A stretch of 64,000 nt of DNA from Selenomonadaceae bacterium (GTDB lineage Bacteria; Bacillota; Negativicutes; Selenomonadales; Selenomonadaceae): positions 1-64,000 of the forward strand of contig JAFXQM010000010.1 in assembly GCA_017527075.1 (NCBI GenBank), given 5' to 3'. Below are positions 1,648 through 58,893 of this stretch, one piece after another. Both the position numbers and the translations under genes were made by a program. Below the pieces are notes generated by a model. That model was not told the origin of the DNA and did no database searches. It worked only from the letters and a program-made list of their open reading frames with translations. Numbering within the stretch: the first letter of the stretch is position 1; each line of letters begins with the position of its first letter.

Positions 1648-4035
1648 TCAGTCCGCGCGAAGAAAATCGCCGAGCGAAAATTTTTTCTGCGGCTCATTGC
1701 GGACGGGCGTTTCCAAATCGTCGAGCGGTTTGAACTCCAGACCGTCGGGCGTCTTCAAAATAATTTCCAACTCGTCGCCGCTCTTGACGGGGTCGGCGAA
1801 TTCGGCGGGCTTGCCGTTGATTTTGATGACAAAACTCATGCGGCTCTTTGCGGGGGGCGGTTTGAAGTTTACGGCAAGGAGCGCGTCGCTGACCATGACG
1901 AAATTTTTTTCCTCGCGCTCAAAAATAATTTCCGCGCCGTCCTCAACGATTGTGTTTTCATTCGACACGCGCCCGTTGACGCTGAGCAAAACCGTCGCCG
2001 TCGTCGGGATGGAATATTCTTTGCCGTTGTAAAAAATTTTCACGGCGGAAGCGCGGCTCTCGTCTTTGACAATCTCGCCGACTTTAATCGCGTCGTTGGC
2101 AACGTATTCAATCGCGTCGCCCGCCTTGGGCACGTCGGAGACATCGGCGCGATCGCCGTTCAAAAAAATATCGGGCGTGCAAGTGTAATGCGCCTTGGAG
2201 CCGTTGAGCGTGTAACGAATCTTTTTTCCTGCGGGCGGATAATTTGCCAGCCTGAGCAGCTCGCCGACGTTGCGTCTGGTCTTTGTGGTGAGTTCGTCGC
2301 CGTCTGCAAGGATTCTGCTCGGCAAACTCACTTCGCCGTTGACCAAAAGTTTCGGCGCGACAGAAAATTCTTTGCCGTTGACGGTAACGGTGAAACTCGG
2401 AGCGACGGCAACAATGTCGTCGATTTTTATTTGCGCGCTGACTCCGTCCTCGCCCGATTGAATTTTTATTCGGCAGTTGTCTTGAATGGGCGTATCCAAA
2501 GTCGCGGGCTCATCGTTGACGAAAATTTTCGCGAAGGTGCCGAGCGTGCCCGGGAAAGATTTTTTCTCGCCGTCGACGGTGACCACGAGCCCGAGCCCCG
2601 GCTTGCCGTTGAATTTTTTGTAATCGATGCCCGCGCTCAAAATCGCGTCGCTGACCGTGAGGTCGCGGAAGTGGAAAAGATTTACTTCCTGCCCGTTAAT
2701 CATGACGTTGAAGAAATGGAAAGAGTCGGTCGAGGCAACTTTCAAAATGCCGAGGGGCGTGGCGGCGTCGGGAGCCTGAAGAGCGGCGGGAATATTTTTT
2801 ATGCCTTCCACTTTGTCGGGCTTGCGGACGGCGACGCGTTCGAGCGGCATGTTCAGAGCTTCGGCGACGAGTTTGTTTAAGTTCGGGGAGAGCGCGCCGC
2901 CTCCAACCAAAAGCAGAGCTTGCGGCGGGTCGTTGCCGTTGAGTTCAAAAATCGTCTTGGCGATGGCGTTTGCAATCATCCCGACGTTTTCATTAATCGG
3001 CATGAGAATTTCTTCCGCCGTGAGGTCGTAAGGGCGTCCGAGGATGTCGCTGAAGGTCGCGCCCTCACCGTTGGTTGCCTTGCGTTTAATTTCTTCGGCG
3101 ACGTTGAAGTCGAGCAAAAATCTTTGGGAAATTGCTTCGGTGACTTCGTCGCCCGCCAGCGGGACCATGCCGTAAGCGATAACCGAACCGTTCTTGGTTA
3201 TGGCGACGTCGGAGGTGCCCGCGCCGATATCGACGAGCACGATATTCAAGTGGCGCATACTCGGCGGGACGAGCACGTTAATCGCGGCGATTGGCTCCAA
3301 GGTCAGCGCGCGAACTTCCAGGCCGGCATAAGTCAGAGCGGTTTGCATTGAGTCGACGACCTGCCGCGGGAGGAACGTCGCGATAACTTTTGTCTTGGCA
3401 ACTTTGCCGCGCTGCCCGATTAAACTTTTCAATCTGATTCCGTCGAGTTCGTAATTGATTATGCTGAAGCCGACGCAGTAATAAATTTTGGCGTCGATTT
3501 TTTTCTCGGCGGTGAGCTGAGACTGCGCCAGCTGGACGGCGGCGAAGTTGAGCGAGCTTTGAACTTCGTCGGTGATGACTCCGTTGACTTCGAGCGTGGC
3601 TTCGGCTGTCATGGTGTAAAGCGCACGCCCCGCCGCCGCGATTGCCGCGCTCTTGAGTTCGCCGACCTGCTCCGCCAAAAAATTTTTCACGCGGATAATC
3701 ACTTCGGCGACCTGCGGCACGTCATGGATTTGCCCGTCGAGCATGGCGCGGCTGGTGTGCTCCAGTCTGTGCGTCGCGATGATTTTCATTTGCCCGTCGT
3801 CGTCCTGCTCCGCGACAATCCCGATGACCGAGCGCGTGCCGATATCGAGCGCGAAAATTTTTTCTTTGCCGTCGGTCTTGTAATCGATTTTTTTCCGAAC
3901 GCGTTTTGGTTTGACTTCCGCAGATTTTTTTTGACGCCCGCGCTTGGGCTTCTCGTCCGCGGAAATTTTTTTCGAGCGAGTGCGTCGGGGTTTTTCTTCG
4001 GGCTTGAGCTCCTCGTCGATAATTTTATCTGTCAT
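1648..4035 (-). CDS. FtsA-like actin-fold ATPase with long C-terminal extension
   Basis: A 795-residue protein. Residues 1-50 are very basic, with repeated KPKR/KPRR blocks. An FtsA/PilM-type actin fold starts at about residue 58 (IFALDIGTRSVIGIVAEQ), with LVDIGAGTSDVAI (phosphate 2) and LLLVGGGALSPNL (adenosine motif). The last ~350 residues hold several small beta modules with recurring NGxxxxV and DGDEL-type strands. Classical FtsA is about 420 residues and anchors FtsZ to the membrane by an amphipathic C-terminal helix, which I do not see here. This architecture occurs in Firmicutes under the label 'cell division protein FtsA', but its exact role is unproven. ATG 4035 has an SD-like GGAGAAAA. 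The start and leader are duplicated at 4248-4306. Confidence 0.75.
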   Translation of the reverse strand: MTDKIIDEELKPEEKPRRTRSKKISADEKPKRGRQKKSAEVKPKRVRKKIDYKTDGKEKIFALDIGTRSVIGIVAEQDDDGQMKIIATHRLEHTSRAMLDGQIHDVPQVAEVIIRVKNFLAEQVGELKSAAIAAAGRALYTMTAEATLEVNGVITDEVQSSLNFAAVQLAQSQLTAEKKIDAKIYYCVGFSIINYELDGIRLKSLIGQRGKVAKTKVIATFLPRQVVDSMQTALTYAGLEVRALTLEPIAAINVLVPPSMRHLNIVLVDIGAGTSDVAITKNGSVIAYGMVPLAGDEVTEAISQRFLLDFNVAEEIKRKATNGEGATFSDILGRPYDLTAEEILMPINENVGMIANAIAKTIFELNGNDPPQALLLVGGGALSPNLNKLVAEALNMPLERVAVRKPDKVEGIKNIPAALQAPDAATPLGILKVASTDSFHFFNVMINGQEVNLFHFRDLTVSDAILSAGIDYKKFNGKPGLGLVVTVDGEKKSFPGTLGTFAKIFVNDEPATLDTPIQDNCRIKIQSGEDGVSAQIKIDDIVAVAPSFTVTVNGKEFSVAPKLLVNGEVSLPSRILADGDELTTKTRRNVGELLRLANYPPAGKKIRYTLNGSKAHYTCTPDIFLNGDRADVSDVPKAGDAIEYVANDAIKVGEIVKDESRASAVKIFYNGKEYSIPTTATVLLSVNGRVSNENTIVEDGAEIIFEREEKNFVMVSDALLAVNFKPPPAKSRMSFVIKINGKPAEFADPVKSGDELEIILKTPDGLEFKPLDDLETPVRNEPQKKFSLGDFLRAD

Positions 4036-4068
4036 ATAATTTTCTCCTTGTCGATAAAGGTTATTGCG
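4011..4068. repeat. 58-bp direct repeat, copy 1 (covers the start of the FtsA-like gene)
   Basis: This copy contains the first codons, start codon and Shine-Dalgarno of the minus-strand FtsA-like gene plus ~30 bp of leader. It is repeated almost exactly at 4248-4306, with one extra A and one substitution in the second copy. Confidence 0.9.
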
Positions 4069-4076
4069 AGGTTGTT

Positions 4077-4222
4077 CTTACTTTCTTTGCGTGCCCAAAG
4101 AAAGTAAGCAAAGAAAGGGCACCTCGCGGGGGCGGCTGCCGATTTGTGACTTGAACGTTTCAGCTTACCCGCAACTCAGAGTGCGCCGGATGACGCCATC
4201 ACGGCGTCAGACGCGGCGCGGC
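4077..4222 (+). repeat. Dispersed structured element, copy A
   Basis: A ~146-bp element whose second copy lies at 57927-58075 on the minus strand. It starts with a perfect 12-bp hairpin (arms 4077-4088 and 4097-4108, loop GCGTGCCC). A second copy of the 3' arm, GCAAAGAAAG, follows at 4108-4117 and could pair with the same 5' arm. A conserved GC-rich part follows (CACCTCGCGGGGGCGGCT; TTACCCGCAACTCAGAGTGC), ending with a 7-bp hairpin TGACGCC/GGCGTCA. It lies upstream of the FakA-like gene in the same orientation, with the 58-bp direct repeats on either side. No ORF of note. Confidence 0.8.
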
Positions 4223-4247
4223 CGTCATCCTTGACGGCCTCTTCTTT

Positions 4248-4306
4248 CCTCGCCGATAAATTTTATCTGTCATATAATTTTCTCCTTGTCGATAAAGGTT
4301 ATTGCG
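4248..4306. repeat. 58-bp direct repeat, copy 2
   Basis: Second copy of the FtsA-like start region. On the minus strand it would begin a short unrelated peptide (MTDKIYRRGKK...) that stops inside the structured element. It may still carry leader or promoter signals. The two copies bracket the structured element at 4077-4222. Confidence 0.85.
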
Positions 4307-56997: not shown

Positions 56998-57880
56998 ACA
57001 GCAGACGATTGCCCGTATCAAAATCGTAAAGCGACTCAGCTTCGTCGATAATCTCTTCAAGCTCGGCGCGCGACGAAAATTTTTTCAGGTTGCAATAAAA
57101 ATCCTCGCGGTGGACGACGACGCTCCGAATGAACGCCGCCGCATAATCCGTGAAAATATTTTCCGCGTCGAAGAGCCGCCAAAAATTTTTAACGCTGTCC
57201 TCGGTCGCCACGCCGTATTCGATTCGATGAATGAGGCGCGATAAATTTGCGCGGACTTCGGGCGTGAACATGGACTTGAGCAGCGCGAGCTCCGGCATGG
57301 AACGCGACGCCCGCACCAGCCAAAATTCCGTCTGCAAATCGTCGTCGAAGTTGTCGAAGCCGCAGGTTATCAGCCGCTCCAAAAGTTCGGGCGGCGATTT
57401 TTTTTTCAGCGGCAACACTTGCACTTCCTTATAAAACGACGCGTAAAGCAGCCGCTCGAATTCCGTGCGCGTGTAAAGCCGCGAGACGATTCCGCCGAAC
57501 GCGCCGCGCATGAGCCGCTCCAAAACTTTCCAGTGGCGAATGTTCCTGAAGCTCGTCAGCCAACAGCCCGTCTGCTTTATGTACTTGGAGAAGCCCGCCG
57601 CGATGTCTTGAGGATTCGTGACGACCTCCAACGTCAAGTCGCCGATGATTGCGTCGAAAAATTCTTCGGGGAAGGGCAACCGCTCCTCGCGATAATCCAG
57701 CCGAAAAATTTTTGCGTCGGCGGAAGCCGGCTCTTCATTCGCCGTGACAAAAAAAATTTCGGCCGTCGGAAATTTTTCGCGCAACTGTCCGAGATACGCC
57801 GCGCTCTCCACGACCAAAATCTTCTCGAAAAAATCTTCGCCCGAAATGAATTCCATCAGGCTCGGTTTAATTTCTTCCAC
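56996..57880 (-). CDS. Methyltransferase-like protein of unknown function
   Basis: A 294-residue protein. Residues ~20-130 look like a class I SAM methyltransferase fold (KILVVESAAYLGQLREKFPT, FFDAIIGDLTLEVVTNPQDI, FSKYIKQTGCWLTSFRN), but the glycine-rich motif I is replaced by VESAAYLG. The C-terminal half is a helical domain (FTPEVRANLSRLIHRIEYGV...) seen in some glycan-cluster methyltransferases and in GT accessory proteins. Function not assigned. GTG 57880 follows CGGAGGTGTGAAC; the upstream in-frame start overlaps the SD. The structured element copy B lies immediately upstream. Confidence 0.65.
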   Translation of the reverse strand: MEEIKPSLMEFISGEDFFEKILVVESAAYLGQLREKFPTAEIFFVTANEEPASADAKIFRLDYREERLPFPEEFFDAIIGDLTLEVVTNPQDIAAGFSKYIKQTGCWLTSFRNIRHWKVLERLMRGAFGGIVSRLYTRTEFERLLYASFYKEVQVLPLKKKSPPELLERLITCGFDNFDDDLQTEFWLVRASRSMPELALLKSMFTPEVRANLSRLIHRIEYGVATEDSVKNFWRLFDAENIFTDYAAAFIRSVVVHREDFYCNLKKFSSRAELEEIIDEAESLYDFDTGNRLL

Positions 57881-57926
57881 GTTCACACCTCCGTTAAGAG
57901 ACAAGTTGAGGCGCGCATGGACGCGC

Positions 57927-58075
57927 GCCGCGCCGCGTCTGACGCCGTGATGGCGTCATCCGGCGCACTCTGAGTTGCGGGTAATCTTAACCTCCAAACC
58001 GTTTGCGAGGAGCCGCCCCCGCGAGGTGTCCTTTTCTTTTGCAACTTTTCTTTTGGACAAGCAAAAGAAAAGTTG
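57927..58075 (-). repeat. Dispersed structured element, copy B
   Basis: Minus-strand copy of the element at 4077-4222. It starts with a perfect 13-bp hairpin (arms 58075-58063 and 58054-58042, loop GCTTGTCC), followed by a second arm-like GCAAAAGAAAAG and GGACAC, the GC-rich part (CACCTCGCGGGGGCGGCT; TTACCCGCAACTCAGAGTGC) and the TGACGCC hairpin. Stem and loop sequences differ from copy A while pairing is kept. It lies ~50 bp upstream of the methyltransferase-like gene. The gap 57881-58172 holds nothing else. Confidence 0.8.
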
Positions 58076-58172
58076 ATTCAAAAAAATAAAAGTCATTAAC
58101 GATTCAAGTGAAGGAATGAGCCCAAGCAATGAGGACAGGTTCTGCGAGTCCACTCTTGAGAAAGAGGGGACG

Positions 58173-58868
58173 TCACACCTCAGGATTTAATTCCGCGCCG
58201 TACTCGCGCAGGAAAATTTTTTGGTAGCGGCGATATTTCGGGTCAAGCGGTTTTTCCTTCGGGCAATGAATACACCAAAAATCTTTCGACTGATTCGGCA
58301 CGACGACTTTGTAACCCGCGCGCCCCATTTCCTTGCAAAGCGACGTGTCATATAAATGCCAGCCGTCAAATAAATCTTCGCGCCAAGGCAAATCATATTG
58401 CGTCGCCAAAAAAAGCCCGTCGACCGACTCAACCTCTTGATAATCGCCGTCGGGCTCGTTGCACTCCGAATCGACGACGCTTTCGGGCTCGCAAGCATGA
58501 AGCACTCGCCCGTATGTCCGCATGCCGTCCCACCACACGCCCGTCTCCGGCAGATTCACGCAGCCAATCACTCCGACCACGCCGATTGATTCGTCCGCGA
58601 AAATTTTCAGCAGGTCAGCCACCAGATTTTTATTCACGACGAAAGTATCTTGGTGCAAATAAATTTTGTACTTGGCGTCGGAAGATTTCATGGCGCGATT
58701 GTAACCGGCGGTCATGGAGGCGGCGTCGCGCACGTCGATAAACTCGGCCGTCATGCCCGCGGGGATTTTTAAGTGTTCGAGGTAAAGGCGGCACTCGCTG
58801 TACCACCAGTCGCTGTTCACGCACGTGATGAACGCGATTTTTTTTGCGTCAAGGCTTTGCTTTTTCAT
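58173..58868 (-). CDS. Glycosyltransferase, Glyco_tranf_2_5-like
   Basis: A 231-residue GT-A-like protein: KIAFITCVNSDWWYSECRLY, ASMTAGYNRAMKSSDAKYKI, YLHQDTFVVNKNLVADLLKI, and VDGLFLATQYDLPWREDLFD; H-x-D in LHQD stands in the metal site. The family is associated with surface glycans; donor and acceptor unknown. ATG 58868 uses GGAATTAGGA, part of a heptamer array, as its SD, and the upstream miaB ends in the same array. Confidence 0.8.
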   Translation of the reverse strand: MKKQSLDAKKIAFITCVNSDWWYSECRLYLEHLKIPAGMTAEFIDVRDAASMTAGYNRAMKSSDAKYKIYLHQDTFVVNKNLVADLLKIFADESIGVVGVIGCVNLPETGVWWDGMRTYGRVLHACEPESVVDSECNEPDGDYQEVESVDGLFLATQYDLPWREDLFDGWHLYDTSLCKEMGRAGYKVVVPNQSKDFWCIHCPKEKPLDPKYRRYQKIFLREYGAELNPEV

Positions 58869-58893
58869 TCCTAATTCCTAATTCCTAATTCCC
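58868..58893 (-). repeat. Heptamer array joining miaB and the next gene
   Basis: About three and a half heptamers (GGAATTA on the minus strand). They encode the end of MiaB (GIRN*) and provide the SD for ATG 58868. Confidence 0.92.

Follow-up and report, generated by a model that had tools for sequence, protein, structure and literature searches.

A dispersed mosaic repeat in a probable Quinella genome, with a mirror-image third strand and a covarying loop-tag lock: a candidate intrastrand triplex element

REP elements are dispersed intergenic palindromic repeats that are inferred to be moved, as single-stranded hairpins, by RAYT (Y1) transposases. Class II purine-motif intrastrand triplex repeats (PIT elements) were reportedly described by Hoyne and Maher in 2000; purine-motif triplexes in general are usually stabilised by G.G-C triads. 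The PIT/BoxC/TMECO repeats carry a pyrimidine arm, a purine arm and a reverse-Hoogsteen strand in that order on one strand, the third strand being a mirror of the purine arm, and they are dispersed and intergenic, occur in both gene orientations and have no known function (PMC4666352). For BoxC, which has the class II order, formation of the purine-motif triplex has been demonstrated in vitro by CD and NMR, but DMS footprinting did not reveal it in vivo; RNA is reported not to form triplexes of this motif (Holder et al. 2015, PMC4666352). The published ITxF search for such elements limited the loops to 1-6 nt (PMC4666352).

We analysed a window of 64,000 nt (the whole stretch of DNA under study) from a 2.5-Mb genome that most likely belongs to Quinella, a rumen genus of the Negativicutes. 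It holds copies of a repeat whose core, P2, is ordered as a pyrimidine arm (X), a 6-nt loop, a purine arm (X'), an A/G third strand and a tag (Y') complementary to the 3' part of the loop (Y). In strand order, in its mirror third strand and in its dispersed, intergenic placement in both gene orientations, this repeat is like PIT/BoxC/TMECO. From core to core its first loop measures 8 nt (G + 6 + C), and its second is ~5 nt; the first is within the 0-10 nt that Hoyne et al. are said to have allowed and outside the ITxF range. The differences are that the Quinella repeat is A-rich where BoxC and PIT are G/C-rich, that sequence and taxa are others, that its core is part of a ~280-nt mosaic element, and that it has a loop-tag lock, of which there is none in the BoxC text or sequences (PMC4666352). 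Identity with BoxC/TMECO was rejected: the consensus there is CCCTCNCCC..GGGNGAGGG..GGGNGAGGG (PMC4666352) versus CTTTTCTTTTG..CAAAAGAAAAG..CAAAAGAAAAG here. From REP elements, which it resembles as a dispersed intergenic palindromic repeat, it differs in having target duplications and in a genome lacking a Y1 transposase.

Neither the window copies nor eight other loci match any Rfam family at the gathering threshold. The model of Flavo-1 RNA (RF01705) gives a full-length match to the core, but with 21.8 bits for copy B and at best 22.9 in the genome (gathering threshold, 42), and it also gives matches below the cut-off in five of 14 control genomes; we do not claim membership. A plasmid copy from Parabacteroides with Flavo-1-like sequence, retrieved with a Flavo-1-like query, has the X-Y-X'-third strand-Y' order too; its core is AAAA and cannot test the mirror rule, and the Parabacteroides loci have no Flavo-1 match in Rfam. 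In two Pseudoalteromonas replicons a TwoAYGGAY RNA (RF01731; 51.3 and 60.4 bits) lies directly after the core on the opposite strand (L218 367-480 and L219 358-486, both minus strand), and the reverse strand of P6, the terminal hairpin of the Quinella repeat, often has an AYGGAY loop. The Quinella element is not itself a TwoAYGGAY RNA, its best score in the genome being 19.1 bits against a threshold of 43.

The preliminary description had placed copy A at 4077-4222 (+) and copy B at 57927-58075 (-). Copies are present at both positions, and the element runs past these coordinates: copy A extends over 4069-4247 (+) and copy B, which is full length (~280 nt), over 57892-58169 (-). Judged from its sequence and from related copies, A is 5'-truncated and lacks P1 and the spacer; in two related copies (L133 and L134) P1 is joined straight to GAGGTTGTTCTTAC. 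On the plus strand, copy A consists of the pyrimidine arm CTTACTTTCTTTG (4077-4089), the loop CGTGCC (4090-4095; Y = GTGCC), the purine arm CAAAGAAAGTAAG (4096-4108), which pairs with X over 13 bp, the third strand CAAAGAAAG (4109-4117), a mirror of the purine core (itself symmetric in A), and the loop-complementary lock tag GGCAC (4118-4122); the P5 module GCGCC..GACGCC ATCAC GGCGTC..GGCGC (4183-4219) and the P6 hairpin GGCCGTC..GACGGCC (4220-4239) follow. Copy B, on the minus strand, begins with the P1 hairpin GTCC-c-CTCTT..AAGAG-t-GGAC (58148-58171), the first two bases of which are the end of the 5' target duplication and the outer pairs of which covary among copies. Its core comprises X, CAACTTTTCTTTTG (58062-58075); the loop CTTGTC (58056-58061; Y = TGTC); X', CAAAAGAAAAGTTG (58042-58055), forming a 14-bp stem with X; the third strand CAAAAGAAAAG (58031-58041); and the tag GACA (58027-58030). 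Its P5 module lies at 57930-57966 and its P6 hairpin, GGCGCGCGTCCATGCGCGCC, at 57910-57929. Both stems are thus perfectly paired, as first described, with lengths of 13 bp (A) and 14 bp (B) instead of 12 and 13, and a third purine copy and a stretch complementary to the loop are seen downstream of the hairpin in A and B alike. Within the 64-kb window a perfect stem of at least 9 bp followed by a purine mirror-type third copy occurs only at these two places, and 60 Markov-1 randomised windows contained none. As single-stranded DNA, the hairpins of A and B fold far more stably than dinucleotide shuffles (z = -3.1 and -4.0).

The element is a dispersed intergenic repeat, and the observation is both real and larger than first noted. 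One 28-mer of the 3' part has 55 exact copies in the genome and one more with three mismatches (56 in total: 21 on the plus and 35 on the minus strand; none in the control), and a pattern for the hairpin core has 140 matches (control, 0); we read out ~70 copies. Another 28-mer, from P5, matches exactly once across the named GTDB collection, and that hit is Quinella sp. 1Q7 (Negativicutes). Among 60 congeners, 56 have pattern matches, ranging from a few to 66 per genome, the low counts including chance matches; outside the genus we found no full-length similarity. The full unit of ~280 nt contains several covarying hairpins, ordered as P1 (in some copies replaced by an alternative P1), spacer, P2 core, CCTCGC-GGGGGCG, P4, P5 and P6. 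The outer pairs of P1 covary among copies when judged by eye (GTCC/GGAC, ATCC/GGAT, TCTCC/GGAGA), and P2, P5 and P6 come as discrete alternative types in which both arms switch together. Arm and P6 types, and likewise loop and P6 types, assort independently (46 combinations in 66 copies), and the family is therefore a mosaic.

We note several further features of the modules. An alternative P1, GTCCTTTCGTTGGTTAAGCAAAAGGACGCAAAGTCAACTGAGG, stands upstream of the core at seven loci; its stem covaries (GTCC/GGAC, GCCC/GGGC, ATCC/GGAT), and its loop GTTG is complementary to a downstream CAAC, making a second pseudoknot-like unit. P5 has at least five discrete hairpin types, with stems swapped, mostly perfectly paired and often sharing an ATCAC loop; variant types were seen at nine loci, and one type is common to 55 copies with zero mismatches. 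Another short repeat, (AATTCCT)n / (TTAGGAA)n, is dispersed as well and is found in the window at 58861-58892, at four of the loci read out and at many sites in this genome and its congeners.

A hairpin-dependent mobile element had been proposed as one identity for the repeat. This is upheld as a serious option. The sites of A and B are both empty in relatives and bear target duplications here. Copy A is an insert of ~178 nt flanked by a direct repeat of ~57 bp, the 5' copy of which (4011-4068, +) includes the ribosome-binding site and start codon of the minus-strand gene at 1648-4035; the 3' copy lies at 4248-4306 (+). In two congeners (G005 and G015) the duplicated sequence is single and the flank matches overlap by 57 and 56 bp. 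Copy B is an insert of ~278 nt with a duplication of ~12 bp: GAGGTGTGACGT on the 5' side (58170-58181, -), which overlaps the upstream gene's stop codon, and GAGGTGTGAACGT on the 3' side (57879-57891, -), so that GAGGTGTGA(A)CGT stands on each side. The copy is absent, and the flanks are contiguous, in four congeners (G005, G012, G002 and G004). At the site where copy B sits, G015 has an (AATTCCT)n-like tract, and in another congener (G006:C3:4200-4398) the 3' end of the upstream gene is partially duplicated over ~199 bp, a duplication of the same sort as the long one at copy A.

Three more copies have flanking repeats, of 10, 14 and ~33 bp, and most have none. A fixed-length target duplication is thus ruled out, since A, B and the three others span 10 to ~57 bp. 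The long, variable duplications and the 5'-truncated copy resemble target-primed or break-repair insertion more than the work of a classical fixed-length transposase, although five cases cannot settle the point. The only enzyme looked for was the Y1 (RAYT) transposase (PF01797), which has no match in the repeat's own genome (85% complete); it is present in seven of 60 congeners, with no visible relation to the copy number of the repeat. We rejected a RAYT/Y1 origin on these two grounds. A phage origin was also rejected: a P5 25-mer is absent from viral contigs, the hairpin patterns were found in eight contigs out of 2.9 million, and the core queries returned no phage records.

The covariation noted for the hairpin was borne out by a test on 45 full copies against the named structure. 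Paired cells make up 94.9% of the total (83.6% in shuffles), double-change cells number 180 (53.4 in shuffles), and the covariation score is 0.314 (0.120 in shuffles), a value reached in none of 500 shuffles; the signal is lost when the partner strand is slid. Wobble pairs are very scarce: three of 1613 cells across five helices. The hairpin arms of the 45 copies show many double changes, zero one-sided changes and zero G-U states.

In A and B the purine core is its own mirror image, so that a direct and a mirror copy are indistinguishable there. Where the core is asymmetric, 75 out of 76 distinct sequences have a third strand that mirrors the purine arm, and not one has a direct copy; these are distinct (genome or locus, sequence) pairs that include congeners, and copies within the genus are not independent. 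The set spans three cores and both handednesses: the arm AAAGAAAA is accompanied by the third strand AAAAGAAA, the arm AAAGAAAAA by AAAAAGAAA, and, with opposite handedness, the arm AAAAGAAA by AAAGAAAA. In viral contigs picked with three stem-only patterns, the third strand playing no part in selection, it is a mirror in eight out of eight. The mirror is limited to the A/G core, the flanking bases being C and G.

The relation recurs in other phyla. A search of a plasmid collection, whose first query had a direct-copy third strand, nevertheless returned mirror loci, and mirror third strands are found in records from Pasteurella multocida (both handednesses), Aeromonas, Burkholderia and Pseudoalteromonas. 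Symmetric cores occur in Ilyobacter (Fusobacteriota), Variovorax and Chitinibacter. The idea of a direct-copy third strand in Proteobacteria proved wrong, the loci examined there being mirror or symmetric. None of the matches lies under an annotated gene, some of the records being barely annotated. We found no match in E. coli, and one asymmetric stem pattern was found, among 398 genomes sampled in a Bacillota search, in its own genome only. Between dapF and the DUF484 gene of P. multocida (L214 560-1080) two cores of opposite handedness stand in inverted orientation and bound ~420 bp with a further inverted repeat. In Burkholderia cepacia (L216 199-310, -) the sRNA candidate Bp1_684 (RF02421, 118.8 bits) overlaps the edge of a core.

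The loop and the tag change together, as the preliminary description had held for the loop and its downstream partner. Examples of the 3' loop part and the tag beyond the third strand are GTGCC/GGCAC, TGTC/GACA, GCGTC/GACGC and CGAG/CTCG. At least 4 bp form in 40 of 52 distinct loop-tag pairs, compared with a mean of 8.7 and a maximum of 18 under permutation. When the test was confined to 18 pairs drawn mainly from other taxa, the count is 16 (permuted, 3.4). The lock and the mirror rule both hold in other phyla.

These observations could be accounted for by a non-autonomous, mosaic, mobile intergenic DNA repeat whose core is a loop-locked class II purine-motif intrastrand triplex, a reading to which we give an about even chance. 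The conserved core would work as single-stranded DNA, exposed in replication, transcription or transposition. Its pyrimidine and purine arms would form a Watson-Crick hairpin, and the A/G strand would turn back into the major groove and run antiparallel to the purine arm, giving reverse-Hoogsteen A.A-T and G.G-C triads. Pairing of the 3' part of the loop with the tag would then lock the third strand in place and offset the weakness of A-rich triads. Pyrimidine arm, purine arm and presumptive reverse-Hoogsteen strand do follow one another on a single strand, and the mirror of identical bases extends over at least 6-7 nt; A.A-T and G.G-C triads call for just such a third strand, one that has the bases of the purine arm and runs antiparallel to it. 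The fold may act as a signal recognised in mobilisation, or it may block a polymerase. Several points count against this reading. The third strand is A-rich, whereas G.G-C triads are the usual source of stability; only the A/G core is mirrored, between flanking C and G; the Quinella copies share a few discrete modules, so that independent events are fewer than copies; no transposase was identified and most copies are without a target duplication; and the BoxC fold was not seen in vivo by DMS footprinting (PMC4666352).

The main rival, which we consider unlikely but ahead of the others, is a structured RNA, perhaps related to Flavo-1: an H-type pseudoknot in which stem 1 is the hairpin, stem 2 is formed by the loop with the tag, and the A-rich third strand lies in register along stem 1. 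The order X-Y-X'-third strand-Y' and the sizes of the parts (a second stem of 4-5 bp and a first loop of 1-2 nt) fit this fold and the triplex equally, the stem 1-loop-stem 2 order is a crossing one, and both stems covary. The weak full-length Flavo-1 match of copy B speaks for it as well, but that score is far below gathering and has its like among the control genomes. Minor-groove contacts along stem 1 do not require a mirror third strand, and the tolerance of G-U expected of an RNA pseudoknot leader is missing, the hairpin arms being without a wobble. Orientation to genes bears on both sides. A and B had been said to lie upstream of a co-oriented gene, as they do; over 58 copies it is a bias and no general rule, since 38 share the strand of their downstream gene and 20 are opposed to it (by context, 26 tandem same, 14 tandem opposite, 11 divergent and 5 convergent). 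An RNA leader, as first suggested, draws weak support from the same-strand majority, but the constant orientation expected of one is contradicted by the third of copies that oppose their downstream gene. Flavo-1 itself is not tied to transcript sense: of its hits in Flavobacterium psychrophilum, some are sense to a transcript, some antisense and some beyond any transcript (PMC9723704), in keeping with a DNA element. Since purine-motif triplexes are stated not to form in RNA (PMC4666352), and given the scarce wobbles and the mixed gene orientation, we favour single-stranded DNA, not a transcript, as the acting molecule of the proposed triplex.

Less probable again is a signal at the level of the duplex, in which a transposase, nucleoid protein or recombinase would read the mirror purine tract and the palindromes with no intrastrand triplex. 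Arm and third strand do make up a homopurine mirror repeat, which could adopt H-DNA or offer a symmetric protein site, and a dispersed, mobile, intergenic and mosaic repeat suits such a role; yet this would predict neither the loop-tag covariation nor the joint change of loop, arm and tag. It is quite improbable that the perfect stems arose by mutational homogenisation (template switching or gene conversion) with no selected structure. Concerted two-sided changes, the lack of wobble intermediates and the almost independent combination of modules, arm and P6 included, are in keeping with such copying, but we know of no copying process that yields a mirror third strand, which is neither complementary nor homologous, and the loop lock recurs with many different letters across distant taxa. 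The bistable switch of the preliminary description, with two mutually exclusive Watson-Crick pairings of the 5' arm, is scarcely credible: only the symmetry of the purine core makes the second copy complementary to the 5' arm as well in copies such as A and B, and in the asymmetric sequences, as in all eight viral contigs of the unbiased test, a mirror copy cannot pair fully with the 5' arm, which excludes the switch as a general function.

The repeat is, in the material searched, a real and widespread variant, previously undescribed, of the intrastrand-triplex kind; a sample core sequence appears in no paper of the literature searched. Comparative support for the third strand and the loop lock is unusually strong: a third strand that changes as a mirror, with either handedness and across several phyla, leaves a comparative signature for which Watson-Crick pairing alone does not account. 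More tentatively, and with somewhat less confidence than in the triplex reading of the Quinella core, we suggest that A-rich intrastrand DNA triplexes with a loop lock make up a class that crosses phyla, in which third strand and lock co-evolve with the hairpin. If so, some motifs catalogued as RNA (Flavo-1, and possibly the surroundings of TwoAYGGAY) would be parts of such DNA elements, which offers a reason why Flavo-1-like motifs look structured yet are untied to transcripts. The formation of purine-motif triplexes inside bacterial cells has been at issue since BoxC and PIT were described, with published tests positive in vitro and not in vivo. The family supplies matched natural variants, in the mirror third strand and with or without a lock, for direct tests, and the cross-phylum class, if real, would be a sign from evolution that triplexes of single-strand DNA arise in living bacteria and are of consequence there.
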